The translations under genes and the position numbers were made by a program. Positions 916 to 17,879 of a stretch of DNA of 64,000 nt are shown here, piece after piece. The notes beneath the pieces are model-generated. The model saw only the letters and a program-made list of their open reading frames with translations, had not been told where the DNA came from and ran no database searches. The stretch spans positions 372,001 through 436,000 of the forward strand of contig NZ_VCQU01000004.1 in the NCBI RefSeq assembly GCF_012932915.1. Reading direction: 5' to 3'. Every line of letters begins with the position of its first letter. The first letter of the stretch is position 1. Origin of the DNA: Antrihabitans stalactiti. GTDB lineage: Bacteria; Actinomycetota; Actinomycetes; Mycobacteriales; Mycobacteriaceae.

Positions 916-3413
916 TCGTGATTCGAGCTGGTCTCAGTCGATTGCGTGTGCTCAACCTTCGCGAGATCGCCGCACACGGTGGCCGCACAGCGGCATCGGT
1001 GATCGTCGTTGCCGTCTCTGCCGCACTGTTGATTGCCGTGATTACGACCTACAGCTCGCTCACCGGATCGGTCACACAGCTCACGAAAAGCATCGCCGGC
1101 GATGCGGATCTCGCTGTTACCGGTTTCACCGATACCGGATTCGAAGAGTCCCTGCTGGGCGCCATCGACGCGACCCCGGGGGTCAAGGCGGCGGTCCCGG
1201 TCGTCCAGCTGCAACGTTCACAACCCGAGCCCTTCATCATGTTGGGCGTTGATTTCCGTGCACTGCAACTTCATTCGAGTCTGCAAACCACGTTGGCGCC
1301 GTATCTGAAGATCGATTCCAAGCTTCTGGCGGTCAAGGACGGCGTGCTGGTCGGCGAACAGATGGGCCTCGCAGAAGGTCAACAGTTCGCAGTGTCCGGG
1401 CAGACGCTGACGGCCGCCGTGGTGGTGCCCGCCGACGTCGCGAAGGGCGTCAACGATGGACATTTCGTCGTTGCGCCGCTCGCTTTGGCCCAGCGTGTCG
1501 CGGGTCGTGACCACCGCGTCGATGCCGCGTTCGTGATAGCCGAGCCGAACACCGACCTCGGTGACCTGACGTCGCGAATCACCGATGCGGTCGGGCATCG
1601 GGCGGTCGTATCGGGAACCGGCTTGCGCGCTGCCCAGGTCGAGAATGCCTTGACCCTGACGCGAAGCCTCACCCTGCTCGTCGCAGCAGTATCGCTGGTC
1701 GTTGCGGCGTTCCTTGTCTTCAATGCAATGAATATGTCGGTGGCGCAACGACGTCCGACCATCGCGCTGGTCCGCTCGATCGGCGCCAAGAGGTCGGTCG
1801 TCGCGACCGACGTTGTCATCGAGGCCGCACTGTCGGGCGTCGTGGCGGGATTGATCGGAATCCCGCTCGGACTGGTTCTCGGGTACTGGGCGATCGACCG
1901 CACACCACCGTTCCTATTGCAGATCGTCTCCGCACCGCTCATCTTCGTCGTTCCGTGGATTGCGATTCCGATCACTCTCGTCGCATGCGTGTTCGCCACC
2001 GTGCTCGCCTCGATAGTTGCGGCCCGGCAGGTCTACCGTGTGGAACCGCTCGAGGCGCTGCTGTCCGCGCGCCTGCAGCCCGCAGAGCAGATCGCTCGAC
2101 GCACCACCCTGGTAGCGGGTGTGCTCGGTGCCGCAGCGATCGTTGCCGCATCGGCAATTGCGAAGTTCGTCAGCGGACTCGTCGTCGTCGGTGCCGCAGC
2201 TCTGTTCATTCTCGGCGTCCTGTTGCTGGGCGTCGCCTTTGCGAAGGTGATGGTCGCAGGGGCCGTTTGGCTGTCCAAGCGATTGGGCCCCTCCGGCCAG
2301 CTCGCCTCGGCATCAATCACTAGGTCACCGCGGCGCGCGTGGGCAACAGCAATGACAGTGGGTATCGCGGTCGCCGTCGGCTGCGCCGTTTTCGGCGCCC
2401 TCAACGACCTGGTCGATTCCGCCAGCGACTCGCTCTCACGCGTCCGCAACACCGATCTCCTACTCGCAGGCACCCCGCCCGCGTCAGTGCCGGACGTGGC
2501 GTTCCCAGCAGAGTGGGAAGGAAGGGTCCGCGCGACGCCTGGGGTGGAGTCAGTCGTCCCTGGGCAGTTTGCGCACGTGACCGTCGGTGATGTTCAGACG
2601 CAGGTCGCCGGCCTGGCACCGGGCAACAACATCAATGTCGCGCCGTTGCTGGAGCCGGACGCGCTCCATCGCGTGCTCGCCGGCGAAGGCGTCGCCATCT
2701 CGCAGCCGCTCGCCGATCGATTCGGCTACAGCGTCGGCGACGACATCTCGGTCGGAACACCCACCGGCATACACACGACGAAGGTCGTCGCTCAGTTCAG
2801 ATTCGTCTCGACCGACGCCGGATTGATCGCAATGAGCCTGGGCGACATGCGGCAATGGTTCGACCGCCCTGGTGCAACCTATCTGGCGATCACGCTCGAA
2901 TCCGGGGCCAACGTCGCCGACGTTCAGTCGAGGCTGCGCGCCGAATTCGGCGACCAGGCCTACGTTTTCACAGGTCAACAAGCGTTCGAGGCCACCACAC
3001 GCAACATCACGCAAGCTGGTTCGCTCGCGGTCGGATTACAGTGGATCGTCGCTGTCATCGCCGCGATCGCTCTGATGAACACGCTCACACTCGCTGTGCT
3101 ACAACGCCGACGAGAGTTCGGCGTGTTACGCGCGATCGGTGCGACTCGCCGCCGGATAGCACGAATGGTGCTGGCGGAGGCGCTTGCTGTCGGCGTGGTC
3201 GGTGGAGTCATCGGCATCGTGGGCGGCGAACTGGTGCACTACATTTCCGACATCGTTCTGACCACCACCACCGGGATCGACATCAGCTTCGGCGCCAACC
3301 CACTGATGCTGTTGTCAGCCGCAATCGCGCTGGTGCTGTGCCTGCTCGGCGCCATTCCACCCGCTCTCCGAGCAGCCAGACTGAACATTCTGCAAGCTGT
3401 CACCGTCGAGTAG
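912..3413 (+). CDS. FtsX-like ABC transporter permease, two FtsX domains
   Basis: An 833-residue integral membrane protein. One membrane segment lies near residues 20-45, followed by a long extracytoplasmic region, a three-helix FtsX block around 245-370, further helices near 395-460 and 475-500, a second extracytoplasmic domain and a second FtsX block at the C-terminus (about 705-820). This is the duplicated MacB_PCD/FtsX architecture of permeases that work with a LolD-type ATPase in export or in handling substrates at the outer face of the membrane. No ATPase gene is visible; it may lie upstream of the window. GTG start overlapping the reductase stop. The 3' end overlaps the convergent gene at 3400 by 14 nt. 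Its substrate is unknown; export of the cluster product is only a possibility. Confidence 0.82.
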   Translation: MIVIRAGLSRLRVLNLREIAAHGGRTAASVIVVAVSAALLIAVITTYSSLTGSVTQLTKSIAGDADLAVTGFTDTGFEESLLGAIDATPGVKAAVPVVQLQRSQPEPFIMLGVDFRALQLHSSLQTTLAPYLKIDSKLLAVKDGVLVGEQMGLAEGQQFAVSGQTLTAAVVVPADVAKGVNDGHFVVAPLALAQRVAGRDHRVDAAFVIAEPNTDLGDLTSRITDAVGHRAVVSGTGLRAAQVENALTLTRSLTLLVAAVSLVVAAFLVFNAMNMSVAQRRPTIALVRSIGAKRSVVATDVVIEAALSGVVAGLIGIPLGLVLGYWAIDRTPPFLLQIVSAPLIFVVPWIAIPITLVACVFATVLASIVAARQVYRVEPLEALLSARLQPAEQIARRTTLVAGVLGAAAIVAASAIAKFVSGLVVVGAAALFILGVLLLGVAFAKVMVAGAVWLSKRLGPSGQLASASITRSPRRAWATAMTVGIAVAVGCAVFGALNDLVDSASDSLSRVRNTDLLLAGTPPASVPDVAFPAEWEGRVRATPGVESVVPGQFAHVTVGDVQTQVAGLAPGNNINVAPLLEPDALHRVLAGEGVAISQPLADRFGYSVGDDISVGTPTGIHTTKVVAQFRFVSTDAGLIAMSLGDMRQWFDRPGATYLAITLESGANVADVQSRLRAEFGDQAYVFTGQQAFEATTRNITQAGSLAVGLQWIVAVIAAIALMNTLTLAVLQRRREFGVLRAIGATRRRIARMVLAEALAVGVVGGVIGIVGGELVHYISDIVLTTTTGIDISFGANPLMLLSAAIALVLCLLGAIPPALRAARLNILQAVTVE

Positions 3414-4578
3414 CAAGGGCACCGACCACCGACGTCACAGGTTCACCGTATGCCCGGCTCGCCCTGACGAGGCTTGCCGCCAGCTCGTCGTCCAGTCCGG
3501 CCGTGCGATCCCACACCTGTTGGCGGACCTCTGGATCCATCTGCACCAGCAACGGAACGAGCGGGTCGATCGGGCCGTCCGCGTGCAGTGCGGTCAGTAT
3601 TCGATCGACGATTGCACCGTCGACGACCAGTGGCAGCGTCGCGACCTGACGCAGGCGTTCTGGTGACATGCCTTCGAGAATCGGCCGTAGGTGGTGCCAG
3701 CGCCCGTCCCGGTCTGCCGCGGTGATGATCGAAGTCAGACGCTCGTCGCTCCAGAGGTCGAGCCCGATCAACCGCCGCAGCTGTGGAGGCGACATAGCGG
3801 CGACGATCGGAATCAGCTCGCTCCACGCTTCGATGCGCTCGGCGGTCTCGACCATCGGCACCAGCACGTCCGTGCCCATTGCGACTGCGATGTCGCCGAT
3901 CCGACCGAGCGTCTCGAGCGCGAACTGCGGGATGAGCGTCAACGCCTCGGCGAAGAGGTTCTCTTCGACGGCGGCCGCGAGAATCGATCGGATTCGTTCG
4001 TCGGGCATCTCTATGACGACGAGTTCGAACCGGTCGACGGCGGAGGTGTGGAATCCGGCGAGCAGCAGGTCCTTTCCGCTCGGCACTCGCGGAACCAACG
4101 CGCGCAATTGCGTGTCCGAAGCAACCGAGACGAATTTCGCGACGGTGGGATAGTCCTTGCGGCGCAACAGTTCTACAACAGTCGGCAGCATCACGTCCGG
4201 CTCCAGCTGTCGCACGATCGGCCCTGCCGCTTCGGGATTGACGAATGCCGCAGTGTCGGCTGCAAATTCGGTGGGGGTTGCAGACATCAACCGCGCCGCG
4301 CGCTCCGGACTGAGTTCGCTGGCGACCATTCCCGACAACTCCGGCCCGACGATCTTCGTCGCCATCCGGACGAGAAACGACACCGGCATCGCTCGACTCA
4401 GCGAAGCGATCTTGCGCAGTTTGGAAGCATGTTCGCCGTAGAGCTGACCGACCAGCGCAATCCGGAAGTCTCGTAGATCGTCGGCGCGAGCGCGCTCCAG
4501 AAAAGCGAGCTCGTGGTGGTCCGCACCGAGATCGTGCGCGAGCCTTGCGATTTCGGCGCGGGTAATGAGGTTGGTCAT
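3400..4578 (-). CDS. Alpha-helical repeat protein of unknown function
   Basis: A 392-residue soluble protein with no signal peptide or membrane segment. It is built of repeated 35-45 residue helical units with recurring 'M-P/S-P-E-R-L/V-R' turns (for example around residues 75-100 and 285-310), reminiscent of HEAT-like repeats or the MgtE N-terminal helical domain. I do not recognise a named family. Its ATG overlaps the stop of the 77-residue gene upstream (ATGA), so it is the last gene of the long minus-strand operon that starts with the kynurenine genes. A scaffold or protein-binding role would be usual for such folds, but nothing in the sequence fixes its function. Confidence 0.6.
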   Translation of the reverse strand: MTNLITRAEIARLAHDLGADHHELAFLERARADDLRDFRIALVGQLYGEHASKLRKIASLSRAMPVSFLVRMATKIVGPELSGMVASELSPERAARLMSATPTEFAADTAAFVNPEAAGPIVRQLEPDVMLPTVVELLRRKDYPTVAKFVSVASDTQLRALVPRVPSGKDLLLAGFHTSAVDRFELVVIEMPDERIRSILAAAVEENLFAEALTLIPQFALETLGRIGDIAVAMGTDVLVPMVETAERIEAWSELIPIVAAMSPPQLRRLIGLDLWSDERLTSIITAADRDGRWHHLRPILEGMSPERLRQVATLPLVVDGAIVDRILTALHADGPIDPLVPLLVQMDPEVRQQVWDRTAGLDDELAASLVRASRAYGEPVTSVVGALATRR

Positions 4579-4808
4579 TGCGACCGCTGGAAACTGCGTC
4601 GCACTACGCCGGGTAGCGAGCCGAGCGAGCGGGATATGGCGTCCTTGATCGCTCGATCCCGGTTTCGTTTGGCCTGCAAGCAGATCCGGGAAATAACCTC
4701 GATCTCGGCGTCGTCGAACTGCTCGAGAAATCGGACGACGTCGGCGTGAACACCGAGGTCGCTGCGCAGTCGAGCCAGCACCGGCCGATCAGGGTCTACC
4801 TGGCTCAT
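4575..4808 (-). CDS. Small conserved-type helical protein (77 aa)
   Basis: A 77-residue, highly charged, probably all-helical protein lacking Cys motifs or a signal peptide apart from one Cys in a helix. It overlaps both neighbours by four bases (ATGA at the 5' end with the DUF2834-like gene, ATGA at the 3' end with the helical-repeat gene), which is the main evidence that it is real. The compact size and acidic centre (FDDAEIEVIS) suggest a small partner protein of the helical-repeat protein. I do not recognise a family. Confidence 0.55.
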   Translation of the reverse strand: MSQVDPDRPVLARLRSDLGVHADVVRFLEQFDDAEIEVISRICLQAKRNRDRAIKDAISRSLGSLPGVVRRSFQRSQ

Positions 4809-5236
4809 GTGGTTGCCACTGCGCTGTCCGACGCAACTCCAGCCGCCAGTTTCAACTGCCGGACAATCATGAACGCAGGGAAGCTGACGCTCAGCGCACA
4901 CAACGGCGCGCCGACGATGTAGACCCACACGTATGGAATCCCCAACCGCCGTGCCTCGCCGATCATGTAGAAGGCCAACGCGATCCAGACGAGTGTGAGA
5001 TCGGCGTAGATGAACCAGCCTGCCGGGTTCGCCAAGGCGTCCCGGAAGAATCCACCGACGACCCCAAGCGCTCCACGGCTGTGATTCTCGTAGGCGTAGT
5101 AGCCGGCGATCGCAACGACTGCAACGAAACTGAAAGCAGCGAAAAAGAAGTAGAACGCGCACACTGCCCGGTCGCGGCCGCGCACATGGAGCAGGTCCGC
5201 CAGCACGTCTCGTACGTAGCGTACGAATTGCGTCAC
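4805..5236 (-). CDS. DUF2834-like small integral membrane protein
   Basis: A 143-residue protein with three predicted membrane helices (about residues 27-47, 73-92 and 103-125). The pattern ADLTLVW...EARRLGI (79-100) is typical of the DUF2834 family, whose function is unknown. The GTG start at 5236 is chosen because GGGAGG lies six bases upstream and the ATG just before it is followed directly by a stop. It begins two bases before the flavin monooxygenase stop codon ends, so it belongs to the same transcript. The N-terminal 25 residues are a charged cytoplasmic tail absent from the minimal family. Confidence 0.68.
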   Translation of the reverse strand: MTQFVRYVRDVLADLLHVRGRDRAVCAFYFFFAAFSFVAVVAIAGYYAYENHSRGALGVVGGFFRDALANPAGWFIYADLTLVWIALAFYMIGEARRLGIPYVWVYIVGAPLCALSVSFPAFMIVRQLKLAAGVASDSAVATT

Positions 5237-5237
5237 A

Positions 5238-6749
5238 TCAAGCCTCCCGCCTGATCGGCGAATTATTTCGGTAGAGATAGTCGTCGAGGTCGAAATGTTT
5301 TGAGCGCCAGACCGCTTCGTAGGTAGTCGCGGGCCGAACGGCCGGTGCGTCACCGTTGTCGTCGAAGTAGTAGCTGTTGGACGAATTGCAGTTGTTGTTG
5401 AAGAACACCGTATTGCGCTGTCTGCGCAGCACCTGCCGAAACGACTCGTCATGTTTTTCCGGCCGCACGACCGCCTCGGTCGCGTTCCGGCGGCGCGCCT
5501 CCGCGATCACCCGAACCGCATGGGTGACTTGGTGGTCGATCGTGCCGAACCACGAACCACCCGTGAACGAGTACGGTCCGACGATGAACCAGAGATTCGG
5601 AAACCCTTTGACCGAACTGCCCTCGTAGGCCTGGAAGCGTTCGGTGCGCCAGAATTCGCGGATGTCACGTCCGTTGAGACCGCGCATCGGGAACGGCGGC
5701 AGGTTGTCGAGGACATGGAACCCGGTAGCGAGAACGATGACATCGAAGTTCCGCTCGCCGCCGTCCGTTGTGCGGATCCCGGTCTCGGTCACCGCCGCGA
5801 CCGGTTCGGTGACCAGATCGACATTGGTCCTGACAAAGGTGCGCCAGTAGCCCTTCGCGAACGAGGGACGCTTGCAGCCGAGCCCGTACCGCGGGGTCAG
5901 CTTGTCGATCAGCGTCCGGTCCCCCTTCACTTGGACACGCAGGTAGAGCCTCGACACCGCCTCTCCTAGCTTGATCAGAAACGGGAATTGCCGGTTGTGC
6001 ACCATCGCGATGACGAAGCTCAGTTCCGTTGCGGCATCGGTGAACACGCGGATGATGCGCTGAAGCCACGGGACGATGCGAAACAGCCGCTGGACGACCA
6101 GGGGCACCGGCACGTCAGGTTTGGGGAACAACCAGATAGGCGTTCGCTGATAGACGGTCAATCCGCGCACCGAACCTGCGATCGCCGGTACGACTTGTAC
6201 TGCCGAGGCACCTGTGCCGATGACGGCTACGTGTCGATCGGTCAACTGGATCGACTGGTCCCAGTCGGCGGTATGCACGACAACGCCTCCGAACTGGTCC
6301 AGACCGTCGATGTCCGGCAGCTTCTTCTTCGTGAGCCAACCAGTCGCGCAAATAGCGAAACGTGCGGAGAGCACCGAATCGTCGGCGAGCCGAAACTGCC
6401 ACAGGTGCAGCGAATCGTCGTAGTCGGCACCGATGACTTTTGTTTTCAGCCGAAGATGCGGACGAAGCCGATACTTCTCGACGCACGCGTCCGCATACGC
6501 CTTCATCTCCGCTCCGCCGGGAAACACGCTCGACCACGAGCAGTTCGGCTCGAACGCGAAACAGTAGGAAAATGCAGCAATGTCTACTGCGATACCGGGA
6601 TAGCGGTTCACGTGCCACGATCCGCCGACGTCGTCGTTTTCGTCCACGATCGCAAAGTCGTCGATTCCCGCACGGAGTAGACCGATCGCTGCGCCAATTC
6701 CGGAGAACCCGGCGCCGATCACCAGAACTTCGTGGTCAGGCGCGGTCAC
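5238..6749 (-). CDS. Flavin-containing (Baeyer-Villiger type) monooxygenase
   Basis: A 503-residue FAD/NADPH monooxygenase. It has the N-terminal dinucleotide fold (GAGFSG, residues 12-17), the Baeyer-Villiger fingerprint F-x-G-x-x-x-H-x-x-x-W (F153, G155, H159, W163) directly before the NADPH fold (GTGASA, 178-183), and an ATGF motif near residue 346. Such enzymes insert oxygen next to carbonyls or oxygenate heteroatoms; in this operon it is a candidate for ring hydroxylation, oxidative decarboxylation or N-oxidation of an anthranilate-type intermediate. It overlaps the UbiG-like gene by four bases. The true substrate cannot be read from the sequence. Confidence 0.85.
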   Translation of the reverse strand: MTAPDHEVLVIGAGFSGIGAAIGLLRAGIDDFAIVDENDDVGGSWHVNRYPGIAVDIAAFSYCFAFEPNCSWSSVFPGGAEMKAYADACVEKYRLRPHLRLKTKVIGADYDDSLHLWQFRLADDSVLSARFAICATGWLTKKKLPDIDGLDQFGGVVVHTADWDQSIQLTDRHVAVIGTGASAVQVVPAIAGSVRGLTVYQRTPIWLFPKPDVPVPLVVQRLFRIVPWLQRIIRVFTDAATELSFVIAMVHNRQFPFLIKLGEAVSRLYLRVQVKGDRTLIDKLTPRYGLGCKRPSFAKGYWRTFVRTNVDLVTEPVAAVTETGIRTTDGGERNFDVIVLATGFHVLDNLPPFPMRGLNGRDIREFWRTERFQAYEGSSVKGFPNLWFIVGPYSFTGGSWFGTIDHQVTHAVRVIAEARRRNATEAVVRPEKHDESFRQVLRRQRNTVFFNNNCNSSNSYYFDDNGDAPAVRPATTYEAVWRSKHFDLDDYLYRNNSPIRREA

Positions 6750-7462
6750 GATGCCGATTTCGTACCGACGCCGAGGAAAAGCACAGCGGTGGAGCCAACC
6801 GGGACCATGCGAACCTCCTCGCGGCGTCGGACGAGAAATGGCAATCCGTCCCGGATGCTGGGGCGCAAGCCGTGCAGGGTCAGCTCGACACCATGCGCCC
6901 GCGCGACAGCGATCAACCGCTTACGGTTGACGAACAAGCGGTGGTCGTGAGTCCCTTTCGGCGGCCGGCCCGGCAGCGGAACGTTCTCCGCGACCGTGAT
7001 GGATAGCAGCCTCGCAATCTTGGTATCGGCAATGGTGTCGAGCACGAGTGTCCCGCCAGGACGCAGCACCCTGCACAGTTCTTCGACGACCGTGTATGGG
7101 TCGCGCACGTGTTCCAGGCATTGCCCCGCCGTGACGACATCGATCGACGCGTCAGGGAAAGGCAACCACGAAATATCGGAGCGAACGACGCCGTCGTAGC
7201 CGTGGCCGAGCGCGACCTCGAGCGACTTCTGCGACAGGTCGACGCCGATCACCTTGTAGCCCTTGCCTTCCAGATGCGGACCGAACAGCCCGCCCCCGCA
7301 TGCGACATCGACCAGGGTGGCCGTGTCGGTGACGGGTGTCGGGACGAACGCAGCACGAGCGCGGGCAATCCACCCCAGTGGTGCGAGCGATCCTCTCGGG
7401 TCCCACCACTCGTCGGCGAGCGCGTCGTAATCGGTGATGAAGTCGCTACGAATCTCGGACAT
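6746..7462 (-). CDS. UbiG-like class I SAM-dependent methyltransferase
   Basis: A 238-residue methyltransferase whose N-terminal 'YDALADEWWDP-G...PL' segment (residues 12-30) and SAM loop VDVACGGGLF (51-60) resemble UbiG/Coq3, the O-methyltransferases of ubiquinone synthesis. Typical motifs continue with the acidic loop after IGVDLS and a post-IV block LRPGGTLVLDT. Actinobacteria do not make ubiquinone, so a UbiG-like enzyme next to a UbiA-type prenyltransferase and a UbiE-like enzyme points to O-methylation of a prenylated hydroxy-aromatic. The ATG at 7462 is preceded by AAAGGGA and lies 17 bases inside the upstream monooxygenase gene. Confidence 0.8.
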   Translation of the reverse strand: MSEIRSDFITDYDALADEWWDPRGSLAPLGWIARARAAFVPTPVTDTATLVDVACGGGLFGPHLEGKGYKVIGVDLSQKSLEVALGHGYDGVVRSDISWLPFPDASIDVVTAGQCLEHVRDPYTVVEELCRVLRPGGTLVLDTIADTKIARLLSITVAENVPLPGRPPKGTHDHRLFVNRKRLIAVARAHGVELTLHGLRPSIRDGLPFLVRRREEVRMVPVGSTAVLFLGVGTKSAS

Positions 7463-8525
7463 CGTGTCCCTTTCTGAGGGCGGGCATGACCTCGGTCGCG
7501 AACAGCTTCAGCGACGCGTGGGCGACCTCGATTGGAATGCCATGGAAAAAGAACTGCACGCTGGCGAACTCGAACCCTCCGCAGGATGCGTGATAGTTCA
7601 GCAGCATCTCGGTGATTTCGGCCGGTGTGCCGACCAAGGCGGAGCCACGCTCGTGCAGTCGGTCGAAGTTGTCGGTCGCCAGCTTTTCGATCATTGCTCG
7701 ATACCCGACGTAGTCGTCGCTCTGCGTCCCAGTAGTCCATTCGCTCGCAGCCTCTACGAGGATGCGCAGGTACCGATTGATCGGCTCGCGAGCCAGCGCG
7801 CGCGCGACTGCGCCGTCTTGCATGCAGAGCATATGAAACGCCAACATGACCCGGCCTTGGCCGGGATGCCCAGCCTCTTTCCACGCCTTGCGGTAGATGG
7901 CCAGATTTGTCCGCAACGACTGAGGTACCACCGGTTGCGCCATGATGCCGAATCCGAGTTCACCCGCGAGCTGGAAACTCTCGGCCGTAGACAGCGCAGC
8001 GATCCAGAACGGAGGATGCGGTTTCTGAGTCGGCCGCGGCAGCGAGGTGGTGGACGGGAAGGAGTGAAATAGGCCGTCGTGCACCACGTTTTCATTTGTG
8101 AGCAGGTCACGGACGAGCAAGATTCCTTCGTCGAAGCGCGCGCGACTTTCGTTCATATCCACGCCGAACCGCTGGAATTCGTGCGGGAGAAAAGCGCGGG
8201 CAAAGCCGATTTCGGCACGACCGCCCGAAATCGCGTCCAGCATGCCGATTTCACCTGCCAGCTTGAGCGGATGGTTGAACGCGGGCAACACTGCCCCGGT
8301 GATCAGCCGTAACTGTCGGCTCCGCTGCGATGCAGCCGAGAGAAATACGACAGGGTTCGGCGAGTATCCGCCGTACCTTCGGAAGTAGTGCTCGACGATG
8401 CGAACGTGGTGAAACCCGAGACTATCGCCGTGTTCGACGAGGTCGAGGCATTGAGCGAAATACTCGGCAGCCCCCTTCTCGTCCTCGCCCACATCGGGGA
8501 AGATGCCCAGACCGACATCGATCAT
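7446..8525 (-). CDS. LLM-class (luciferase-like) flavin-dependent monooxygenase
   Basis: A 359-residue TIM-barrel protein of the bacterial luciferase-like family. It begins with DVGLGIFPD, has EH and NPVVFLSAASQRSRQLRLITG in the positions where luciferases bind flavin phosphate, and DAISGGRAEIGFARAF as the family's conserved strand-loop. It uses FMNH2 or F420 and may hydroxylate the aromatic ring or oxidise an intermediate of the operon's pathway. The ATG at 8525 overlaps the methyltransferase stop codon (ATGA), which fixes the start; the open frame continues upstream without a ribosome site. A separate flavin reductase is not encoded nearby. Confidence 0.82.
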   Translation of the reverse strand: MIDVGLGIFPDVGEDEKGAAEYFAQCLDLVEHGDSLGFHHVRIVEHYFRRYGGYSPNPVVFLSAASQRSRQLRLITGAVLPAFNHPLKLAGEIGMLDAISGGRAEIGFARAFLPHEFQRFGVDMNESRARFDEGILLVRDLLTNENVVHDGLFHSFPSTTSLPRPTQKPHPPFWIAALSTAESFQLAGELGFGIMAQPVVPQSLRTNLAIYRKAWKEAGHPGQGRVMLAFHMLCMQDGAVARALAREPINRYLRILVEAASEWTTGTQSDDYVGYRAMIEKLATDNFDRLHERGSALVGTPAEITEMLLNYHASCGGFEFASVQFFFHGIPIEVAHASLKLFATEVMPALRKGHDVRDS

Positions 8526-9562: not shown

Positions 9563-9574
9563 CGGTTGTCCTTT

Positions 9575-10843: not shown

Positions 10844-10861
10844 TCGCGACAGTTCTCCTGT

Positions 10862-11728
10862 TCACAGCGTCGAGCGAATCGACCAGAGCTCGGGAAAGAA
10901 CCGGTGCTGTGCGATCTGGCTCAGCCAGCTGGATCCCTCCGTACCGCCGGTGCCTGGTTTGTCGCCCAGCATCCGCTGGACCGTCACGAGGTGGGTGTAG
11001 CGCCAGCGTGCGAAGAGATCGGCCGTATCGGTGAGGGCCTCGGCGAGAAGGAACAAGTCGTGGCGTTCCCGTCGCTGTTCGTACACCGAATTCCAGGCAG
11101 CCGCAATCTTTGCGTGCGGCTCGTACGGCACCGTCACGTCCCGTTCGAACACCTCGGGCGGGATGTCGCAGCCACGCCGGGCGAGGTAGCGAACCGCCTC
11201 GTCGTACAGACTCGGCGAACGCAGATCGGCAAGCACCTCCGAATACTCCTCGGTCTCGCGGTGTGGGCCGACCAACGCCGAGTTCTTGTTCCCGAGAACG
11301 AATTCCAGCCGGCGATACGACGACGACTGGAAGCCTGACGCTGTCCCCAGAATCTCTCGAAAGGCCGCGAATTCGGTTGGCGACATCGCAGCCAAAGCGT
11401 CCCAGCAAGACAGCAGCACATGCTGCACTCGGAGACTGCGCCGGAGGGTCCAGAGCGCGTCTTCCAGGCGATCGGCGGCAAGGTGCCCGCGGGCGGCTGC
11501 GAACTCGATATAGAGGAGTTTGAACAACAACTCCTTGACCTGACTCAGAATGATGAACCCGGCTTCGGTCGGCTCCTCGGTGACCGGATGCTGCAGAGAC
11601 AGCAGCGTATTCATTGCAGCGTAATCCGAATATGCTGTGGGCGTGAATAATTCGTGCGCCGACTCCGCGACGGATCGCGCGGGCGCGAACAGCGGGCATG
11701 CACTGTCCTTGTCACCAGGCTCGCTCAT
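10862..11728 (-). CDS. kynA: Tryptophan 2,3-dioxygenase
   Basis: A 288-residue haem dioxygenase opening the indole ring of L-tryptophan to N-formylkynurenine. Visible family marks are the distal His in LLSLQHP (His47), the signature SGFQSSSYRRLEFVLGNK (131-148), the haem-ligand His in RWRYTHL (His246) and the substrate loop GTGGTEG (259-265). The ATG at 11728 is preferred over one 14 codons upstream because GAGGTG lies directly before it and it starts eight bases after the formamidase stop. It initiates the kynurenine branch of the operon. Confidence 0.93.
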   Translation of the reverse strand: MSEPGDKDSACPLFAPARSVAESAHELFTPTAYSDYAAMNTLLSLQHPVTEEPTEAGFIILSQVKELLFKLLYIEFAAARGHLAADRLEDALWTLRRSLRVQHVLLSCWDALAAMSPTEFAAFREILGTASGFQSSSYRRLEFVLGNKNSALVGPHRETEEYSEVLADLRSPSLYDEAVRYLARRGCDIPPEVFERDVTVPYEPHAKIAAAWNSVYEQRRERHDLFLLAEALTDTADLFARWRYTHLVTVQRMLGDKPGTGGTEGSSWLSQIAQHRFFPELWSIRSTL

Positions 11729-11735
11729 CGGCACC

Positions 11736-12605
11736 TCACGCAGACTCGGCTTGCACACCCGTGGACGCAACGATGTTGCTCAGGACTGCGCGACCTAGTT
11801 CGGTACTCGGGTCGCCCAGGTCGTAGGGAAGATCGAAATGGTTGCGCGCTGGACCGATTATCTCGGTAACCCGCGCACGCTGCCGCAACAATCCCGACAT
11901 CGTGTCGTGCTGGCGAATGAACTCGCTCGTTTCTATTCCACCTCTAGCGATGACGACAGGCGGCAGTTGCAACGGCAGCCGATAGATCGGGCTGTTGCGC
12001 ACGGCGGCATCGAGATCGAGTCCGAGGGCGTCGTTGACGTAGGTGTGCCGCAAGGGTTCGAGGTCGTAGATGCCACTGAGCAGCGTCGCGCTGGCGATCT
12101 GCTGCGCACAGTCGGCGACGAGCGCCATCGCGACCAGATGAGCGCCTGCGGAGCTTCCGCTCACATGAATTCGCCTCGGATCGATCCCGAATCGCAGCGC
12201 GTTCGCGTGCAGCCAGGCAATGGATGAACGCACCATCGTGACGATGTCATCGAGCGTGTGGTCCGGTGCCAGTCCGTAGTCGATTGCCGCGAAAGCGATT
12301 CCGGCGGAAAGAAAACTCGTCGCCGCGAATTCGGAGTCGCGCTTGGTCAGTTCTTGCCAATAGCCGCCATGGACAAAAACCATGACCGGTGCATCCGGCT
12401 GATCGACAGGGAACAGGTCCAGCGTGGCTTCCGGGAGGGAACCGTAACGCAGTTCTTCGACACGCCCGTGCCGTGTTCGCGCTGCCGCGCTGAGCCGGGC
12501 GTAATCGTCCAAGTAGGCCGGCAAGCTCGAGACGAGCGAACTGGGCGAGTACTCGCGGTCGAGATCGCATCGACTGAACCCGGCGTAGCCGCTGGCGTTG
12601 CTCAA
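11736..12605 (-). CDS. kynB: Arylformamidase (kynurenine formamidase), alpha/beta-hydrolase type
   Basis: An alpha/beta hydrolase of 289 residues with the oxyanion motif HGGYW (79-83) and nucleophile elbow GSSAG (Ser152), plus a late His in ARNHFDLP. HGG-type hydrolases of this kind serve as N-formylkynurenine formamidases; location directly before TDO and kynureninase makes that function likely. There is no ATG at the right place: the proposed TTG at 12605 overlaps the stop of the DUF6875-like gene (TTGA), the same coupling geometry used elsewhere in this operon. The family is not homologous to the metal-dependent bacterial KynB, so the symbol denotes function only. Confidence 0.82.
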   Translation of the reverse strand: MSNASGYAGFSRCDLDREYSPSSLVSSLPAYLDDYARLSAAARTRHGRVEELRYGSLPEATLDLFPVDQPDAPVMVFVHGGYWQELTKRDSEFAATSFLSAGIAFAAIDYGLAPDHTLDDIVTMVRSSIAWLHANALRFGIDPRRIHVSGSSAGAHLVAMALVADCAQQIASATLLSGIYDLEPLRHTYVNDALGLDLDAAVRNSPIYRLPLQLPPVVIARGGIETSEFIRQHDTMSGLLRQRARVTEIIGPARNHFDLPYDLGDPSTELGRAVLSNIVASTGVQAESA

Positions 12606-13195
12606 TGTTGCGGCCCGAACTCTGCGCACGCCTCGCGGTACCGTTCGGCGAAAAGCTGGTCGATGCCCTCGCTGCCGTGCAGGTGATAGGAACCGAACAA
12701 GCGCCGGTACTCCTCGAACCAGTCCCGCTGTTCGTGGAGAAACAGGATGTCGTGCAACGCCATATGACGGATGGCGACCAATGGGATCGGCGCCCTGCTG
12801 ACCTGAAAGTCCGGGTTTCGGACTGCGGGTTCCGTACACGACGGGTGGAACTGCCCAAGCATCATTCCCCTGCGTACTGCGATCGACTTGACTGCGCGAT
12901 GCGCCTCGTCGAGCAACCCGTATGCAGTCGGCGCCAGGTCTGGGATGACCAGAACGAGACACCGCAGAGCCGGATTGGAGCCGTTCCACTCGATCTCATC
13001 GAACTCGTCGAGCGCAGCGAGCACCAAGTCGGTGACATCTGCCTTATCGGGCGCCGAACCAGCGGATTTGATCGTGATCTCGAGCGACCCGGCGCGTTGC
13101 GCAGGCGGCACAAACGGACAGACCGGTCCAGTTCGGCCGATCGATACATTCGGCCGGCATATGTAGTCGGCGAGCCAGTCACGGACAGTCGTCAT
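12602..13195 (-). CDS. DUF6875-like protein, first gene of the kynurenine operon
   Basis: A 197-residue soluble protein of unknown function. The N-terminal block with CPFVPPA (residues 26-32) and a later GQFHPSC...AVRN segment (112-126) match what I recall of the DUF6875 family; the conserved Cys, His and Arg residues look like a catalytic or metal site, but no reaction is known to me. The ATG at 13195 is chosen because GGAG lies six bases upstream, over an upstream in-frame ATG at 13249 that lacks a ribosome site. As the promoter-proximal gene of an eleven-gene operon it is probably part of the same pathway rather than a passenger. Confidence 0.6.
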   Translation of the reverse strand: MTTVRDWLADYICRPNVSIGRTGPVCPFVPPAQRAGSLEITIKSAGSAPDKADVTDLVLAALDEFDEIEWNGSNPALRCLVLVIPDLAPTAYGLLDEAHRAVKSIAVRRGMMLGQFHPSCTEPAVRNPDFQVSRAPIPLVAIRHMALHDILFLHEQRDWFEEYRRLFGSYHLHGSEGIDQLFAERYREACAEFGPQH

Positions 13196-13971
13196 CGTCG
13201 CTCCGGACGACAACTGGGCCCCGGATCTCGTCTTGGTCGACTCATCCATTTCGATCGGCCGGACAATGATCAGGCGTTGCAACGAGACCGCTCGTCGGTC
13301 GCCGCATCCGGACCTCCAGGGCAGGGAACAAAAGCGGTCCGGTGAAGCATAGCTCGCACCAACAGCGATATCTGGCTGTTTGCGGTTGACTTCCGTCAAC
13401 CGCTCGACTCGCTGCCACGCTCCCTGCGATGGACGAGACTTCTCGTCGTCGATGCGGAGTCGCTGTCACCCGCCCACAGGTGACCTGCGCAATCGGTGAC
13501 CCACGCCAGTGAACCGGCCCGCGATGCTCGTCGCGATCGCTGCGGCAGCGCTCTTCAATGATCAACTTTGCCAAGAGAAGATCAAGTATTTGACTACCAT
13601 TGCTGTACAAGCGAATTGATCAGATCGCCCTCGGTTGTCGAAGTTTGCTGGATATACTCTCGCTGAAATCGAGCGCACAAGGGGCAGCCGGCATGAACCG
13701 TAACGGAGTCAACACGGGCGGATTTGCCGCGCTCATGGCAGACTCCGCACCAAGCCGCTCCTCCCCCATGCCATCGATCGACGTTCTCGATCACGTTGAC
13801 CCGCTCGGGAAACATCCGCCCGGAGCGGTCGGTTTCGCGCTACGCCTCGAGTTTGCTGGACCGCTCTCTCAGTTGGCCACACGACCAGCTCGCACGGAAG
13901 TCCGGGATCCTCGGCGCGCGACCTCCATTGCCTGACGTAGCACGTAGCACTCGATCACCAAGAGGATCCTC
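13196..13971. other. Divergent promoter region of the two biosynthetic operons
   Basis: A 776-base gap between the minus-strand kynurenine operon and the plus-strand prenyltransferase operon. It holds the inverted repeat at 13382-13403 and a TTGACT hexamer at 13591-13596 that could be part of a plus-strand promoter. An 80-codon frame at 13693-13935 ends 36 bases before the prenyltransferase, but its composition is unremarkable and I do not count it as a gene. A frame on the minus strand (13242-13610) is likewise unconvincing. The base composition at 13540-13680 is more AT-rich than the flanking genes, as expected for promoters. Confidence 0.6.
13382..13403. promoter_or_regulatory. Perfect inverted repeat, candidate operator of the divergent cluster
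   Basis: Two 9-base arms, GCGGTTGAC and GTCAACCGC, are exact reverse complements separated by TTCC. The repeat lies about 190 bases upstream of the DUF6875-like start and about 570 bases upstream of the prenyltransferase start. It has no T-run, so a terminator is unlikely; the size suits a dimeric repressor or activator. No regulator gene is encoded in the visible part of the cluster. Confidence 0.55.
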
Positions 13972-14916
13972 ATGGCGTTGACGGAACATCAGCAGCCGGC
14001 AACAGCACCTCGCTCCCTTAGAACGCGTTACCTCGCACTCGCGAAGGTAGACGTGCCGGACTACTGGTATGGACCGATTGTTGCGTGGTCCTGCGCAGCG
14101 AGTCCCTTCGGTTGGGTCGTAGTTCCGGCATCGATGTTGGTCACCGGAGTCGCAGGCGGAAACTGGGCGGCTGCCGCGCTCGACGACATCCAAGGACTCG
14201 CCGACGGTATCGACGAGATCACTTACAGCAGCGAAAACACCCTGCGATCACGCAACCGCAAGCCGCTGTTGACCGGAGAGCTCACTGCCGACGAAGCACG
14301 ATTGTTTGCGAGCGCGTGCGTGCTCGGTTCCATGGGCGTGAGCGTTGCCGCCTTCGGGTTGTCGCCGCACCGGCCGCTGCGTTTGGTCCCTATCGGGCTC
14401 GCCGGTTTGCTGCTTTCGGTGCAATATTCGTACGGACTGAAACTCAGCTACCGTCCCGGCGGCGCCGAGGCCAGCCTCTTCGGGACGATGATGCTGGTCA
14501 CCGCCGGACCGGGTTATCTCTTCGGCGCAGCGAGGCCGGCCCTCTGGGCCGCGACATTGCTGCTGTCGTCGACCATGACACAGAGCGCGATGGCTGCGAA
14601 CGGGCAGGACGCTGTCGCCGATGCCGCGGGCGGTCGCCGAACCATCGCGACGCTGCTGACGTCCGCACAATACGGTCGGCTGATCGCTCTGCTGTCCGTC
14701 GTAGATCTTGCTGTTGCGCTCGGGGCCGTGGGTCTCGGTGCGCTGCATCCGATTACCGCTCTCACGTTGACACCGGCCGCAGTGTGCAAAGCGCGACAGG
14801 CTCATTCGGCATGGCAAGGAGACTGGTTGCGGGCCCGTCGCAGAGGATTCACCGCACTGCGAATGATTGCGGGCGGGATCATCGCGGGCAACCTTGTCGG
14901 CAGAGCCCTGCGATGA
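13972..14916 (+). CDS. UbiA-family membrane prenyltransferase
   Basis: A 314-residue polytopic membrane protein (about eight helices) of the UbiA superfamily, which transfers a polyprenyl chain from its diphosphate to an aromatic or other acceptor. The first Asp-rich motif is DDIQGLADGID (71-81) and the second QDAVADAAGGRRT (212-224); both resemble the EboC-like subgroup more than MenA or UbiA proper, where the first motif is N-D-x-x-D-x-x-x-D. AGAGGATC precedes the ATG. It heads a four-gene operon with a UbiE-like methyltransferase, a polyprenyl diphosphate synthase and a prenyl reductase, so the donor is probably made by the same operon and the acceptor by the divergent kynurenine operon. 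Confidence 0.85.
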   Translation: MALTEHQQPATAPRSLRTRYLALAKVDVPDYWYGPIVAWSCAASPFGWVVVPASMLVTGVAGGNWAAAALDDIQGLADGIDEITYSSENTLRSRNRKPLLTGELTADEARLFASACVLGSMGVSVAAFGLSPHRPLRLVPIGLAGLLLSVQYSYGLKLSYRPGGAEASLFGTMMLVTAGPGYLFGAARPALWAATLLLSSTMTQSAMAANGQDAVADAAGGRRTIATLLTSAQYGRLIALLSVVDLAVALGAVGLGALHPITALTLTPAAVCKARQAHSAWQGDWLRARRRGFTALRMIAGGIIAGNLVGRALR

Positions 14917-15548
14917 GTCCCAGTGCGGCGCCGGATTCCTTGCCGGTGGGCGGAAATGCGGCTTGGTCACGATCGATGCCGCTCCAACTGGTGTATACCG
15001 AGGTCGCGCCGATCTACGACAAGGTCAACTTCATGATGACCGGCGGTCAGGACGCCGGCTGGCGGCGCCAAGCAGTCGGAATGCTGGAACTCGGAACATC
15101 GGCAAAGGTACTCGACATCGCCACGGGCACCGGTGCGGTGGCAACCGCGCTCGCAGCAGAACGCCCCGGAGTCTCGTTTCTCGGCATCGACATCAACAAT
15201 CGGATGCTCGAGTATGCACGGCAACGGATGAAGAGACTGACCTTCCTGCGACCCGAAAGCTCTTGGCGCGTCGCACATTGCGCCGCCGAGCGCCTCCACG
15301 ACATCGCCAACCAGTCGCTGGACGCCGCAACGATCGCCTTCGCTATGGACGACCTGGACGACACCTCTGCGGCATTGAACGAAGTCCACCGAGTGTTGCG
15401 CAGCGGCGGGCGGTTCGTCGTGCTGGAGTTCGCTGTGCGTGGCGGTAATCGGACCATCGAACGTTGTGCGGCGGCAGGTCTCACCGTGCGCCGAACTAGA
15501 TCCCTGGCCGCTGGTCTCGTTCGAATCCACTTGTGCGTCAAAGCATGA
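14913..15548 (+). CDS. UbiE/MenG-like methyltransferase, shortened
   Basis: A 211-residue SAM methyltransferase beginning, like UbiE, with VYTEVAPIYDKVNFMM (28-42), SAM loop LDIATGTG (67-74), GIDIN (91-95), ATIAFAM.DLDD (139-150) and VLRSGGRFVVLEFA (161-174). UbiE proteins continue for roughly 80 residues after the LEFS motif; here that part is reduced to about 37, keeping only the final 'AGL...L.AGLVRIHLCVKA' strand that matches the usual LTGGIVALH.G.KP end. The lid region is therefore missing. C-methylation of a prenylated aromatic ring is the family role. ATG overlaps the prenyltransferase stop (ATGA). Confidence 0.8.
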   Translation: MSPSAAPDSLPVGGNAAWSRSMPLQLVYTEVAPIYDKVNFMMTGGQDAGWRRQAVGMLELGTSAKVLDIATGTGAVATALAAERPGVSFLGIDINNRMLEYARQRMKRLTFLRPESSWRVAHCAAERLHDIANQSLDAATIAFAMDDLDDTSAALNEVHRVLRSGGRFVVLEFAVRGGNRTIERCAAAGLTVRRTRSLAAGLVRIHLCVKA

Positions 15549-15567
15549 AACCGGAGGTCAAGCAACC

Positions 15568-16626
15568 ATGAGCGTCCGAACATTCGAATCGGGGCCGTCA
15601 CCGATAAGTCCGAACCAGAGCATGATCTCCGATTTCGACTTCGGCGATACTGCATTGGCCGACGACATCCAGCAGCAGCTCGGGCAGACGGAACATGCGA
15701 TCGTGCGTGAGCTCTCCTGCGGTGAACCTGCACTGGAGGAGCCGATGATGCACCTCACCACATCCGGGGGAAAGCGATTCCGGCCCTTGTTGGCACTGCT
15801 GTCGTCGCAGTTCGGACCGCGTCCCGGTTGTAGCGCCGTGATCGACGCGGCGGCCGCGGTGGAGCTGGTCCACATGGCGTCGCTGTACCACGACGACGTC
15901 ATGGACGAGGCGACGATGCGGCGCGGTGTCGAGAGCGTGAACCTTCGGTGGAACAACTCGGTGGCAATCCTTGCCGGTGATTACATGCTCGTCCGCGCCT
16001 GGAGCGTACTGACCAGGTCACAACTGGATCCCGTGCTCAAGGTTTCGGCGTTGACGACACTGTCCGAGAGTGCGACAGCATTGGTCACGGGGCAACTGCG
16101 TGAGACGGTCCAGAGTCGCGAGGGGATCATCGAACCCGAGCAGTACTTGCAGACTGTGACCGAGAAGACGGCATCCCTGCTCTCGATCGCTGCCTGGCTG
16201 GGCGCCGCATACTCCGGTGCCGACGAGACTGTTGCCAAGACGCTCTCAGCGATCGGCGAAGCCATCGGCATTGTCTTCCAGATCTCCGACGACATCATCG
16301 ACGTCGCCGCACCGTCGGATCGTTCGGGCAAATCTCGGTGTACCGACCTCCGCGAAGGCGTGGCGACGCTCCCCGTCATATATGCGCTTCGCGATGGCGC
16401 GGCGACGACGCGACTACGCGAACTCGTCTCTCGACCAATCACCGACGACAACGAGGTGGAAGAGGCTGTGCAGCTGATCCAGTCCTCGTCGGCGTTCGCC
16501 GAATCACGCGCCATGATGGAGCGTTACGCCGCGCTAGCGCACTCGCACCTCGCAACATTGCAACCAGGTGTCGCCCGCCAGGCGATCGGCAATCTAATCG
16601 ACTTCACGCTGGCCAGATCGAACTAG
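15568..16626 (+). CDS. Long-chain polyprenyl diphosphate synthase
   Basis: A 352-residue trans-isoprenyl diphosphate synthase. GGKRFRP (67-73), first Asp-rich motif DDVMD (109-113) and second DDIID (241-245) are intact. The residues four and five positions before the first Asp are Ser105 and Ala104; small residues there leave the chain pocket open, which by established rules favours long products rather than C15 or C20. GGAGG precedes the ATG. It would supply the side chain for the prenyltransferase two genes upstream. Similar to heptaprenyl/nonaprenyl synthases such as mycobacterial GrcC1, which is likewise adjacent to a MenJ-type reductase. Confidence 0.9.
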   Translation: MSVRTFESGPSPISPNQSMISDFDFGDTALADDIQQQLGQTEHAIVRELSCGEPALEEPMMHLTTSGGKRFRPLLALLSSQFGPRPGCSAVIDAAAAVELVHMASLYHDDVMDEATMRRGVESVNLRWNNSVAILAGDYMLVRAWSVLTRSQLDPVLKVSALTTLSESATALVTGQLRETVQSREGIIEPEQYLQTVTEKTASLLSIAAWLGAAYSGADETVAKTLSAIGEAIGIVFQISDDIIDVAAPSDRSGKSRCTDLREGVATLPVIYALRDGAATTRLRELVSRPITDDNEVEEAVQLIQSSSAFAESRAMMERYAALAHSHLATLQPGVARQAIGNLIDFTLARSN

Positions 16627-16634
16627 GAGTGGCT

Positions 16635-17879
16635 ATGGGCAACAAATACGATCTGGCGATCGTCGGAGGCGGGCCGGCAGGGTCCGCCGCCGCGTGGCAA
16701 GCAGCAAGAGCGGGATTGAAGGTCGTGTGTGTCGACAAGGCAAGGTTTCCGCGCGACAAGGCATGTGGTGACGGGCTGACGCCTCGTGCGGTCGCGCTCC
16801 TCGACTCGATGGGCTTGAGCGAGCAGCTCACGCAGTTCCATCGGATCGACGGTGTGCGATTCAGCGGTGCGAAGAACTGGCAAGTTCCATGGCCGCACCG
16901 CACCGGGCTGCCCGACTACGGCTACGTCGCGCGCAGGACCACGCTCGACGCAATGCTGCTGGAGCATGCCGCGGCGGCCGGTGCCGAGATCCGAGAATCG
17001 ACGGAGGTCGTCGGCCCGGTGGCATCCGGCAATCGAATCACGGGGTTCAAAACGAAGAGTGCCGCGGGCACGGAGCCGATCGTCGCGGATATCGTCCTCG
17101 CCGCCGATGGGGCGTACTCGCCGCTGAAGAAGGCAATCGGCCTGAAGTCGAAGATATCCGGAACTGCAGCAGTCGCCATTCGCGCCGAAATGCGCTCGGA
17201 CCGACCGGATGATCACATGTTCGAGGTCTATCCCCACGTCAAGGTCGGCAAGAACACGATTCCTGGATACGGGTGGGTCTTTCCTCTCGGCGGCGGCCAA
17301 ATCAACGTCGGCATCGGCTATCTCACGTCCTACAAACGGTGGCGCGATATCAACATCTCGCAGCTGCTCGAGCAGTTCACGGCGACGCTGCCGCCCGATT
17401 GGCAGCTACCGCAGATGGACGAATTGCGCCGCAGTCGAGCTGTGCAAGCATGGCGACTGCCGATGGGCTTCACTGCGTGGCCACCGTGGCAGCCTGGCCT
17501 GTTGCTCGCCGGCGACGCGCTCGGCGCAGGCAAGCCGACCAGCGGTGCCGGAATTTCGAAGGCAATCGAGTCCGGGCTGCACGCCGCGCGGTCCGCACAG
17601 CTCGCTCTCGACACGACCGGGCCCGACGATCTGTCCGAATACGCACGTGTGCTTCGCCGTCGCTGGGGAATGCAATACCGGATGGGCAGGATCATCCAGC
17701 GGTGCGGTCGTGAACCCGCCCTCGTCGGGGCAGCGTTCTCCGTCTTCGACCACAAGATCACGCATCGAGCGATCATCTTGGGCGGCTACGGGTGGAAGGC
17801 CGCGAAATCGTATGAGCCGGAACCGAAGCCAAAATCCGCAGCGCGCCTGGAGGGTCCAACAGAGTCGATAAGCCGCTAG
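16635..17879 (+). CDS. Geranylgeranyl reductase family (MenJ-like) prenyl-chain reductase
   Basis: A complete 414-residue FAD enzyme: GGGPAG (11-16), CGDGL (44-48) contacting FAD, AADGAYS (157-162), the family signature PGYGWVFPL (210-218) and AGDALGAGKPTSGAGI (292-307). It is expected to reduce one or more double bonds of a prenyl chain, as MenJ does for menaquinone or ChlP for geranylgeranyl groups. AGGAG lies seven bases before the ATG and only eight bases separate it from the synthase. It is the last gene of the plus-strand operon; its relative at 1-915 is clearly diverged, so this is not a recent duplication. Confidence 0.87.
   Translation: MGNKYDLAIVGGGPAGSAAAWQAARAGLKVVCVDKARFPRDKACGDGLTPRAVALLDSMGLSEQLTQFHRIDGVRFSGAKNWQVPWPHRTGLPDYGYVARRTTLDAMLLEHAAAAGAEIRESTEVVGPVASGNRITGFKTKSAAGTEPIVADIVLAADGAYSPLKKAIGLKSKISGTAAVAIRAEMRSDRPDDHMFEVYPHVKVGKNTIPGYGWVFPLGGGQINVGIGYLTSYKRWRDINISQLLEQFTATLPPDWQLPQMDELRRSRAVQAWRLPMGFTAWPPWQPGLLLAGDALGAGKPTSGAGISKAIESGLHAARSAQLALDTTGPDDLSEYARVLRRRWGMQYRMGRIIQRCGREPALVGAAFSVFDHKITHRAIILGGYGWKAAKSYEPEPKPKSAARLEGPTESISR

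Follow-up and report, generated by a model that had tools for sequence, protein, structure and literature searches.

Tryptophan-cleavage and polyprenyl-type genes in Antrihabitans stalactiti: a probable cluster for a polyprenylated 4-methyl-3-hydroxyanthranilate derivative

We analysed a 64-kb stretch of DNA from Antrihabitans stalactiti (G000:C21:372001-436000; genome of 6.76 Mb in 26 contigs), hereafter the window, in which a minus-strand operon of kynurenine-pathway genes lies divergent from a plus-strand set of prenyl-type genes. Judging from gene content and from related loci, tryptophan is probably the starting point from which this cluster builds a polyprenylated 4-methyl-3-hydroxyanthranilate (4-MHA) derivative. 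Prenylation of the tryptophan-derived ring appears very likely, because three Streptomyces strains (loci L109, L110 and L113) carry an orthologous nine-gene series together with a MenA-type UbiA and a fusion of polyprenyl synthase to DUF6875. The genes of the cluster are as follows.

12602-13249, minus: the operon's first gene, encoding a 215-aa DUF6875 protein and putative heme-dependent tryptophan C-7 hydroxylase (PF21780, 192 bits)
11736-12605, minus: kynurenine formamidase-like (KFA) alpha/beta hydrolase (Pfam BD-FAE/Abhydrolase_3)
10862-11728, minus: tryptophan 2,3-dioxygenase (TDO; PF03301, 183 bits)
9575-10843, minus: kynureninase (KYNU; NCBIfam equivalog TIGR01814, 258.2 bits against a cut-off of 246.4)
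8522-9562, minus: SibL-like, putative 3-hydroxykynurenine C-methyltransferase of the Methyltransf_2 type (best solved-structure match SibL)
7446-8525, minus: luciferase-like (LLM) flavin monooxygenase (PF00296, 188 bits)
6746-7462, minus: UbiG-like methyltransferase (NCBIfam UbiG equivalog, 104.3 bits, narrowly above the cut-off of 102.95)
5238-6749, minus: FMO/BVMO-like flavin monooxygenase (PF00743, Pyr_redox_3)
4805-5206, minus: DUF2834 protein (PF11196)
13972-14916, plus: UbiA-superfamily prenyltransferase of a rare clade (PF01040, 42.1 bits against 34.2)
14913-15548, plus: short UbiE/MenG-like methyltransferase, usual C-terminal part missing (TIGR01934, 117.9 bits, below the cut-off of 158.35)
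15622-16626, plus: long-chain-type polyprenyl diphosphate synthase (PF00348, 214.8 bits)
16635-17879, plus: geranylgeranyl (GG)-reductase-family flavoprotein, MenJ-like (TIGR02032, 194.2 bits against a cut-off of 158.8)
1-915, plus: second MenJ-like (menaquinone-reductase-like) gene, starting 347 bases left of the window (NCBIfam MenJ, 395.7 bits)

The eight minus-strand junctions comprise four overlaps of 4–17 bases, three gaps of 7–18 and one gap of 31 between the FMO and DUF2834 genes, a spacing as in one operon. The original prediction had named the kynurenine, methyltransferase and monooxygenase genes of this operon and, divergent from it, the UbiA, UbiE-like, polyprenyl synthase and prenyl reductase genes; all were found where it had placed them, on the minus and plus strands, respectively. 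It had overlooked the DUF6875 gene at the operon head, the SibL-like nature of the methyltransferase and the MenJ-like gene at the left edge.

The head-group cassette

By gene set and order, the first five genes of the operon are an actinomycin-type 4-MHA cassette. According to PMC6521150, the last nonribosomal peptide synthetase (NRPS) gene of the actinomycin cluster is followed by acnF (hypothetical protein, 211–212 aa), acnG (arylformamidase), acnH (TDO), acnL (kynureninase) and acnM (methyltransferase), acnF is indispensable, and the cluster contains no kynurenine 3-monooxygenase (KMO) gene; the window matches this five-gene series in both content and order. The identical series DUF6875-KFA-TDO-KYNU-methyltransferase stands behind an NRPS-like end in genome G452, whose copy is 51–66% identical to the window proteins (KFA 54%). 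Midpoint-rooted trees of the five cassette genes placed the window with L109, L110 and L113 in one clade in 5/5 cases (support 0.999 for the methyltransferase, 0.944 for KYNU, 0.901 for TDO, 1.0 for KFA and 0.805 for DUF6875). That clade is nested in groups of 24–27 with L112 (Streptomyces actinomycinicus) and other actinomycin-type loci and no KMO-bearing locus, the larger group being supported at 0.954–1.0 in four trees and at 0.493 in the methyltransferase tree. In actinomycin biosynthesis 4-MHA goes to an NRPS, whereas the window holds UbiA, polyprenyl synthase, UbiG-like, LLM and FMO genes instead, and a single NRPS query, run over all 64 kb at E 1e-3, matched nothing.

The best solved-structure relatives of the methyltransferase were the SibL entries 4qvg, 4u1q and 4x3q (E 3.6e-116). 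SibL is a crystallised 3-hydroxykynurenine C-methyltransferase which, according to the portion of PMC4426599 at hand, does not accept 3-hydroxyanthranilate as a substrate and uses Y134, Y288, D292, Y295 and H335, with D132, for binding of 3-hydroxykynurenine and catalysis. The window protein retains all of these residues; SibL Y99 is replaced by phenylalanine, as it is in 5/6 homologues (G452, G322, G379, G496, G504, G217). Two features, the retained SibL substrate residues (bar Tyr99) and a five-gene set that matches the actinomycin cassette, make 4-MHA the most likely head group and with it the most likely precursor for prenylation. Of the original proposal that (hydroxy)anthranilate is prenylated, the tryptophan-derived ring stands, with 4-MHA as the likelier precursor.

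Comparison loci were fetched through a methyltransferase-alignment scan (80 of 114), and their genes were called by a simple script of our own, not taken from annotation. Presence was scored at thresholds of our own (100 bits for DUF6875, 150 for KMO, 65 for NRPS, 300 for LLM and FMO, 200 for UbiG-like, 45 for the others), NRPS and KMO were each judged by one query, and several fetched loci end at contig ends, so that absences there are weak. Among the loci with both TDO and KYNU (38/80, the other 42 being excluded from this count), 25 held DUF6875 only, six a KMO-like gene only, seven neither and none both. UvrA-like and NRPS matches accompanied the KMO-like gene in 5/6 of its loci, which were pyrrolobenzodiazepine-like by our own reading; the loci with neither gene were six from Nocardia and one short fragment (L128, 6.8 kb). 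A KMO-like query, again a single one, found no match in the whole 64-kb window at E 1e-3.

The DUF6875 protein most likely stands in for KMO in the window cluster. The family is described, in the part of PMC13307353 available, as a heme tryptophan hydroxylase acting at C-7, and C44, H135, C138 and H166, candidate heme ligands, are kept in 32/32 aligned homologues, the window protein included. DUF6875 and TDO together could replace KMO, because a hydroxyl placed on C-7 of tryptophan ends up, once the ring is opened, at position 3 of kynurenine. DUF6875 also occupies the place of the missing KMO in the actinomycin-type loci (L112 and others), where it should be acnF; we infer that identity from size and position rather than from a comparison with the acnF sequence. 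The comparison adds an argument that DUF6875 supplies the missing 3-hydroxylation step in actinomycin biosynthesis.

TDO, formamidase and kynureninase by themselves would also fit plain tryptophan catabolism, or supply of an NAD precursor, beside an island of menaquinone-tail genes. That explanation is scarcely credible, as the operon also holds the SibL-like C-methyltransferase, DUF6875, the UbiG-like enzyme and two monooxygenases, and an orthologous set with the fusion recurs in three Streptomyces.

Orthologous operons and genomic setting

The whole gene series was present in three of the 80 loci: L109 (Streptomyces griseocarneus 132, operon at 5421-15748), L110 (Streptomyces sp. NBS 14/10) and L113 (S. 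milbemycinicus NRRL 5739). In each, the operon runs on one strand as [synthase-DUF6875]-KFA-TDO-KYNU-methyltransferase-LLM-UbiG-like-UbiA-FMO-DUF2834, with the synthase and DUF6875 fused in a single open frame of 509–525 aa that contains both Pfam domains (3/3). Identities to the window proteins were 54–60% for DUF6875, 66–71% for KFA, 67–70% for TDO, 71–72% for KYNU, 72–73% for the methyltransferase, 76–78% for LLM, 70–74% for the UbiG-like protein and 70–73% for FMO; DUF2834, which follows FMO in 3/3, was 58–67% identical over 83–115 residues. The UbiA proteins of these loci scored only 48–60 bits against the window queries. Pfam verified that they belong to UbiA, and NCBIfam showed them to be MenA-type, with scores above the MenA equivalog cut-offs in 3/3 (323–344 bits against 264; 228–233 against 102).

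At our thresholds, orthologues of LLM, FMO and the UbiG-like protein occurred in only L109, L110 and L113 among the 80 loci. The original claim that the kynurenine product and the prenyl chemistry belong to one pathway is supported there, since 3/3 of these loci hold the MenA-type UbiA and the synthase-DUF6875 fusion. UbiA accompanied four full cassettes (L109, L110, L113, L147; n = 25), and an NRPS match the other 21. If kinship is ignored, plain counting gives a probability of 4/2300 that all three LLM-bearing loci fall among the four with UbiA; L110 and L113 are closely related, their UbiA proteins sharing 93% identity.

Two further loci combine cassette genes and UbiA in another arrangement, with kynureninase on the opposite strand: L147 (S. 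viridochromogenes DSM 40736) and that of G322 (L097/L098). Both also have acyl-CoA-ligase-like genes and a cytochrome P450 (several of these names by our own reading), and G322 additionally has a polyprenyl synthase and an MmpL-type transporter. We rejected FMO as a cluster marker: 92/397 genomes of the order matched it at E 1e-100, those other than the cluster's own being at most 51% identical among the matches listed. LLM gave one match in 395 other genomes of the phylum sample (E 1e-80, 41% identity), in a neighbourhood with no cassette match.

The cluster appears as an insertion when compared with congeners. In two of three (G003, G001), the left flanking gene (window -1700 to -405, carboxypeptidase-like by our own sequence reading) and BrkB are neighbours with no cluster gene between them, the aligned ends of the two genes lying at 7688/7705 in L071 and 7799/8024 in L072; the third (G002) has other genes in this place. 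The same flanks in A. stalactiti enclose 18.4 kb, in which the second MenJ-like gene and an FtsX-type permease gene accompany the cluster, and BrkB and then TrpS follow on the minus strand beyond the plus-strand operon of UbiA, UbiE-like, synthase and GG-reductase genes. Around TrpS, the three congeners yielded no match to a cluster protein over the 20 kb fetched (E 1e-10), and their best whole-genome kynureninase matches were distant (E 1.1e-9, 2.0e-10 and 1.5e-8). A UbiA relative was present among them in G002 only (29% identity). The two MenJ-like genes in the A. stalactiti genome share 67% identity where compared; each congener has one strong match, and G003 one weak match in addition. Being missing from three congeners, the cluster is not core metabolism.

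These data bear on whether the two divergent operons might be independent, one making 4-MHA for an unprenylated product and the other an unrelated isoprenoid lipid. Such independence would suit the single operon of the Streptomyces loci in place of a divergent pair, the 13/14 fetched neighbourhoods of UbiA relatives with no TDO or kynureninase match, and the NRPS matches beside 21/25 full cassettes. It is nevertheless improbable: the corresponding functions share one operon, and partly one protein, in L109, L110 and L113, the window gave no match to the one NRPS query, and two congeners with adjacent flanking genes lack the single stretch that holds the whole set.

The original prediction began the cluster at 3400. 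We rejected the gene at 3400-4578, between the FtsX permease and the operon, as a pathway member and left it out as probably unrelated, because its family (found in 20/101 genomes searched, the own genome included) is multi-copy in some relatives. A scan of the divergent intergenic region for promoters and terminators found none; a near-perfect palindrome at 13958-13975, overlapping the UbiA start, is a possible operator.

The tail genes and points against the proposal

The best NCBIfam match of the window synthase was the mycobacterial nonaprenyl synthase (328.5 bits, below the cut-off of 600), and its nearest paralogue in the own genome, L190, is 47% identical. Prenyl chain length can be read, as a prediction and not a measurement, from the residues before the first Asp-rich motif. 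There the window synthase (HMASLYHDD) resembles L190 (HLATLYHDD); a motif of similar kind is found in L191 and in the fused Streptomyces synthases (HTATLVHDD, HIATLHHDD, HAAALCHDD), and L192, L193 and G322 differ (HAFALLQDD, QACALIHDD, HDFSLLHDD). The GG-reductase scored 193.2 bits with the MenJ model (cut-off 700) and contains the motif GYGWVFP, and the second MenJ-like gene reached its 395.7 bits from the 304 residues inside the window, against that same whole-protein cut-off. Taken together, the long-chain-type synthase, the GG-reductase and the second MenJ-like gene are most simply read as predicting a long tail with partial saturation.

The genome's own MenA (over the cut-off), a MenJ-like gene and a long-chain-type synthase lie on another contig, C26, and the UbiA of the Streptomyces clusters is 45% identical to that MenA. 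We rejected the cluster UbiA, UbiE-like protein and reductase as the organism's MenA, MenG and MenJ, since UbiA has no MenA match, the others fall below the MenG and MenJ cut-offs, and MenA and a MenJ-like gene are found elsewhere. Relatives of the window UbiA at 29–39% identity occurred in 3/150 other relatives and 12/393 other genomes of the class, one genome being in both samples, and a contig scan with the single UbiA sequence found none. UbiA was likewise rejected as a cluster marker, given its neighbourhoods noted above. The clusters around two of its relatives, L060 and L065, resemble each other and include, by our own reading, genes of aminotransferase-, oxidoreductase- and acyl-CoA-ligase-like type.

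Several observations weigh against the proposed pathway. We know of no compound of such a cluster, and open-licence PubMed Central literature, a scope that leaves preprints aside, gave no description of prenylated 4-MHA compounds or lipids or of a cluster of this kind. The original prediction had made joint conservation of the two operons a check: the functional pairing is conserved in the three Streptomyces loci, but the divergent layout and the window UbiA are not, nor are its UbiE-like and GG-reductase proteins, so that these have functions only in common. The window UbiA is 17–19% identical to the Streptomyces cluster UbiA, belongs to another clade and is assigned to the UbiA superfamily only, with no match to an NCBIfam prenyltransferase or subfamily model; for these reasons MenA-type decarboxylative attack is not transferable to it, and the prenylation site in the window pathway may differ from that in Streptomyces. 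The window synthase is 31–36% identical to the fused ones. The UbiE-like protein aligns only to positions 3–147 of 223 in the TIGR01934 profile, the C-terminal third being missing, and may be inactive, degraded or acting differently. In the window methyltransferase, F, L and N replace the SibL cofactor contacts Y148, R202 and H245. Presence of the cassette is in itself no sign of prenylation, because 21/25 full cassettes adjoin NRPS matches. Finally, the authors of PMC6521150, in the text available, assume that KMO is encoded outside the actinomycin cluster and propose a dimerisation role for acnF.

A further point against a quinone comes from L110 and L113, where a squalene-hopene-cyclase-like gene stands directly after the operon and suggests a cyclised meroterpenoid in those strains; a FAD oxidoreductase-like gene follows there too, with a P450 match in L113. 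It is quite possible that the window product is likewise a specialised, antibiotic-like meroterpenoid without a respiratory role: 4-MHA, once prenylated, would stay an aminophenol and undergo oxidation, methylation and perhaps cyclisation. The NRPS matches beside most full cassettes and the absence of the cluster from three congeners would suit this as well. Against it, L109 has the operon with no cyclase within the fetched 21 kb, the window cluster contains no terpene cyclase, and a long-chain-type synthase, a GG-reductase and a second MenJ-like gene are the equipment of a lipoquinone tail.

Prenylation might also take place at the indole stage, with the kynurenine enzymes then acting on prenylated tryptophan, a course that we consider distinctly improbable. 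TDO attacks the indole C2–C3 bond, and the window TDO and kynureninase group with actinomycin-type enzymes, which by general pathway knowledge act on unprenylated substrates. The precedent, and another point against prenylation of 4-MHA, is zigralone, a tryptophan-derived meroterpenoid whose zig cluster shares DUF6875, UbiA and a polyprenyl synthase with the window and for which the proposed route adds the prenyl group while the ring is still an indole (PMC13307353, available text). There the indole is kept and rearranged to a quinolone by a thiamine pyrophosphate-dependent enzyme, and the gene list in that text has no TDO, formamidase or kynureninase.

Predicted pathway and comparison with known systems

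From enzyme families, conserved residues and related loci, we infer the following reactions in A. stalactiti, the order of the late steps and the product. DUF6875 would hydroxylate tryptophan at C-7, TDO would open the ring to N-formyl-3-hydroxykynurenine, the formamidase would convert this to 3-hydroxykynurenine, the SibL-like enzyme would C-methylate it and kynureninase would release 4-MHA. UbiA would then join polyprenyl diphosphate from the cluster synthase to the 4-MHA ring, the luciferase-like enzyme and FMO would oxidise the ring (hydroxylation at C6 and C5), the UbiG-like enzyme would O-methylate the new hydroxyl (at C5), and the GG-reductase and MenJ-like enzymes would saturate the tail in part.

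4-MHA carries COOH at C1, NH2 at C2, OH at C3 and CH3 at C4, and MenA prenylation proceeds with loss of the carboxyl. Carboxyl-displacing prenylation of that kind would lead to an amino-, methyl-, methoxy-, polyprenyl-1,4-benzoquinone, with the four substituents of rhodoquinone reordered. Such a prenylated amino-methyl-methoxy-benzoquinone, a regioisomer of rhodoquinone, fits best as the product; an aminoquinone end product is best-fitting but unproven, and the predicted quinone route would fit the L109 operon best, with its MenA-type UbiA and no cyclase seen. That some actinobacteria, in addition to menaquinone, use such a tryptophan-derived isoprenoid aminobenzoquinone, with a long and partly saturated tail, as another redox carrier of the membrane is a possibility that we regard as doubtful.

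To our knowledge, a kynurenine-pathway route to aminoquinone-like lipids is known only from animals. If the window pathway is real, it would be a second, independent one: bacteria would have built a worm-like trick from the actinomycin precursor cassette, a quinone begun from a kynurenine product with the amine present from the outset. It would also offer bacterial genes for testing whether an amine-bearing ring can enter quinone assembly. UbiG-type methylation and hydroxylations, which belong to the ubiquinone route, are a further feature in common with the animal pathway.

The animal parallel drawn by the original prediction is apt as logic: Caenorhabditis elegans prenylates 3-hydroxyanthranilate with COQ-2 on the way to rhodoquinone (PMC6656428), and the window resembles this in using a kynureninase product as the amine-bearing ring and in polyprenyl transfer. 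Kynureninase and a UbiG/COQ3-type methyltransferase, both features of the animal pathway, exceed their curated cut-offs in the window, UbiG narrowly. The parallel does not extend to the chemistry in detail, since the window ring would be C-methylated before release, its 3-hydroxylation probably takes place on tryptophan, its UbiA is assigned to superfamily only and the predicted order of substituents differs. Bacterial rhodoquinone is an aminoquinone too, for which RquA transfers an amino group from S-adenosylmethionine to ubiquinone (PMC9814641, as far as its available text goes); in the window the amine would come from tryptophan.

Other systems share parts of the set. Sibiromycin-type pyrrolobenzodiazepine loci (L100, L106/L107, our own reading) have the SibL-like methyltransferase, TDO, formamidase and kynureninase in common with the window, but differ in having a KMO-like flavoprotein together with NRPS and UvrA-like genes, and show no UbiA, synthase or GG-reductase match. 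The window synthase and reductases resemble menaquinone enzymes (MenA, MenJ and mycobacterial nonaprenyl synthase being the set compared), but the head group would not be naphthoate. Foxicin was rejected as a known aminoquinone relative, the accessible part of its text lacking the terms kynurenin, prenyl and anthranil.

SibL-like methyltransferases also occur in other company. Those of L169 and L170 (Photorhabdus) and L171 (Xenorhabdus) have NRPS matches as neighbours, and the sequence fetched around them gave no match to TDO or kynureninase. In 7/80 loci (L142 from Streptomyces oryzae, L141, L145, L146, L148, L177 and L178) such a gene accompanies 4-hydroxyphenylpyruvate-dioxygenase-like, UbiA, GG-reductase and tocopherol-cyclase-like genes, and 6/7 also have UbiE and polyprenyl synthase matches. 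A tocopherol-like pathway in bacteria is possible from these loci; Pfam was run on three proteins of G504 (L104/L105), and the G504 methyltransferase has valine at the position of SibL Tyr288, which fits another substrate.

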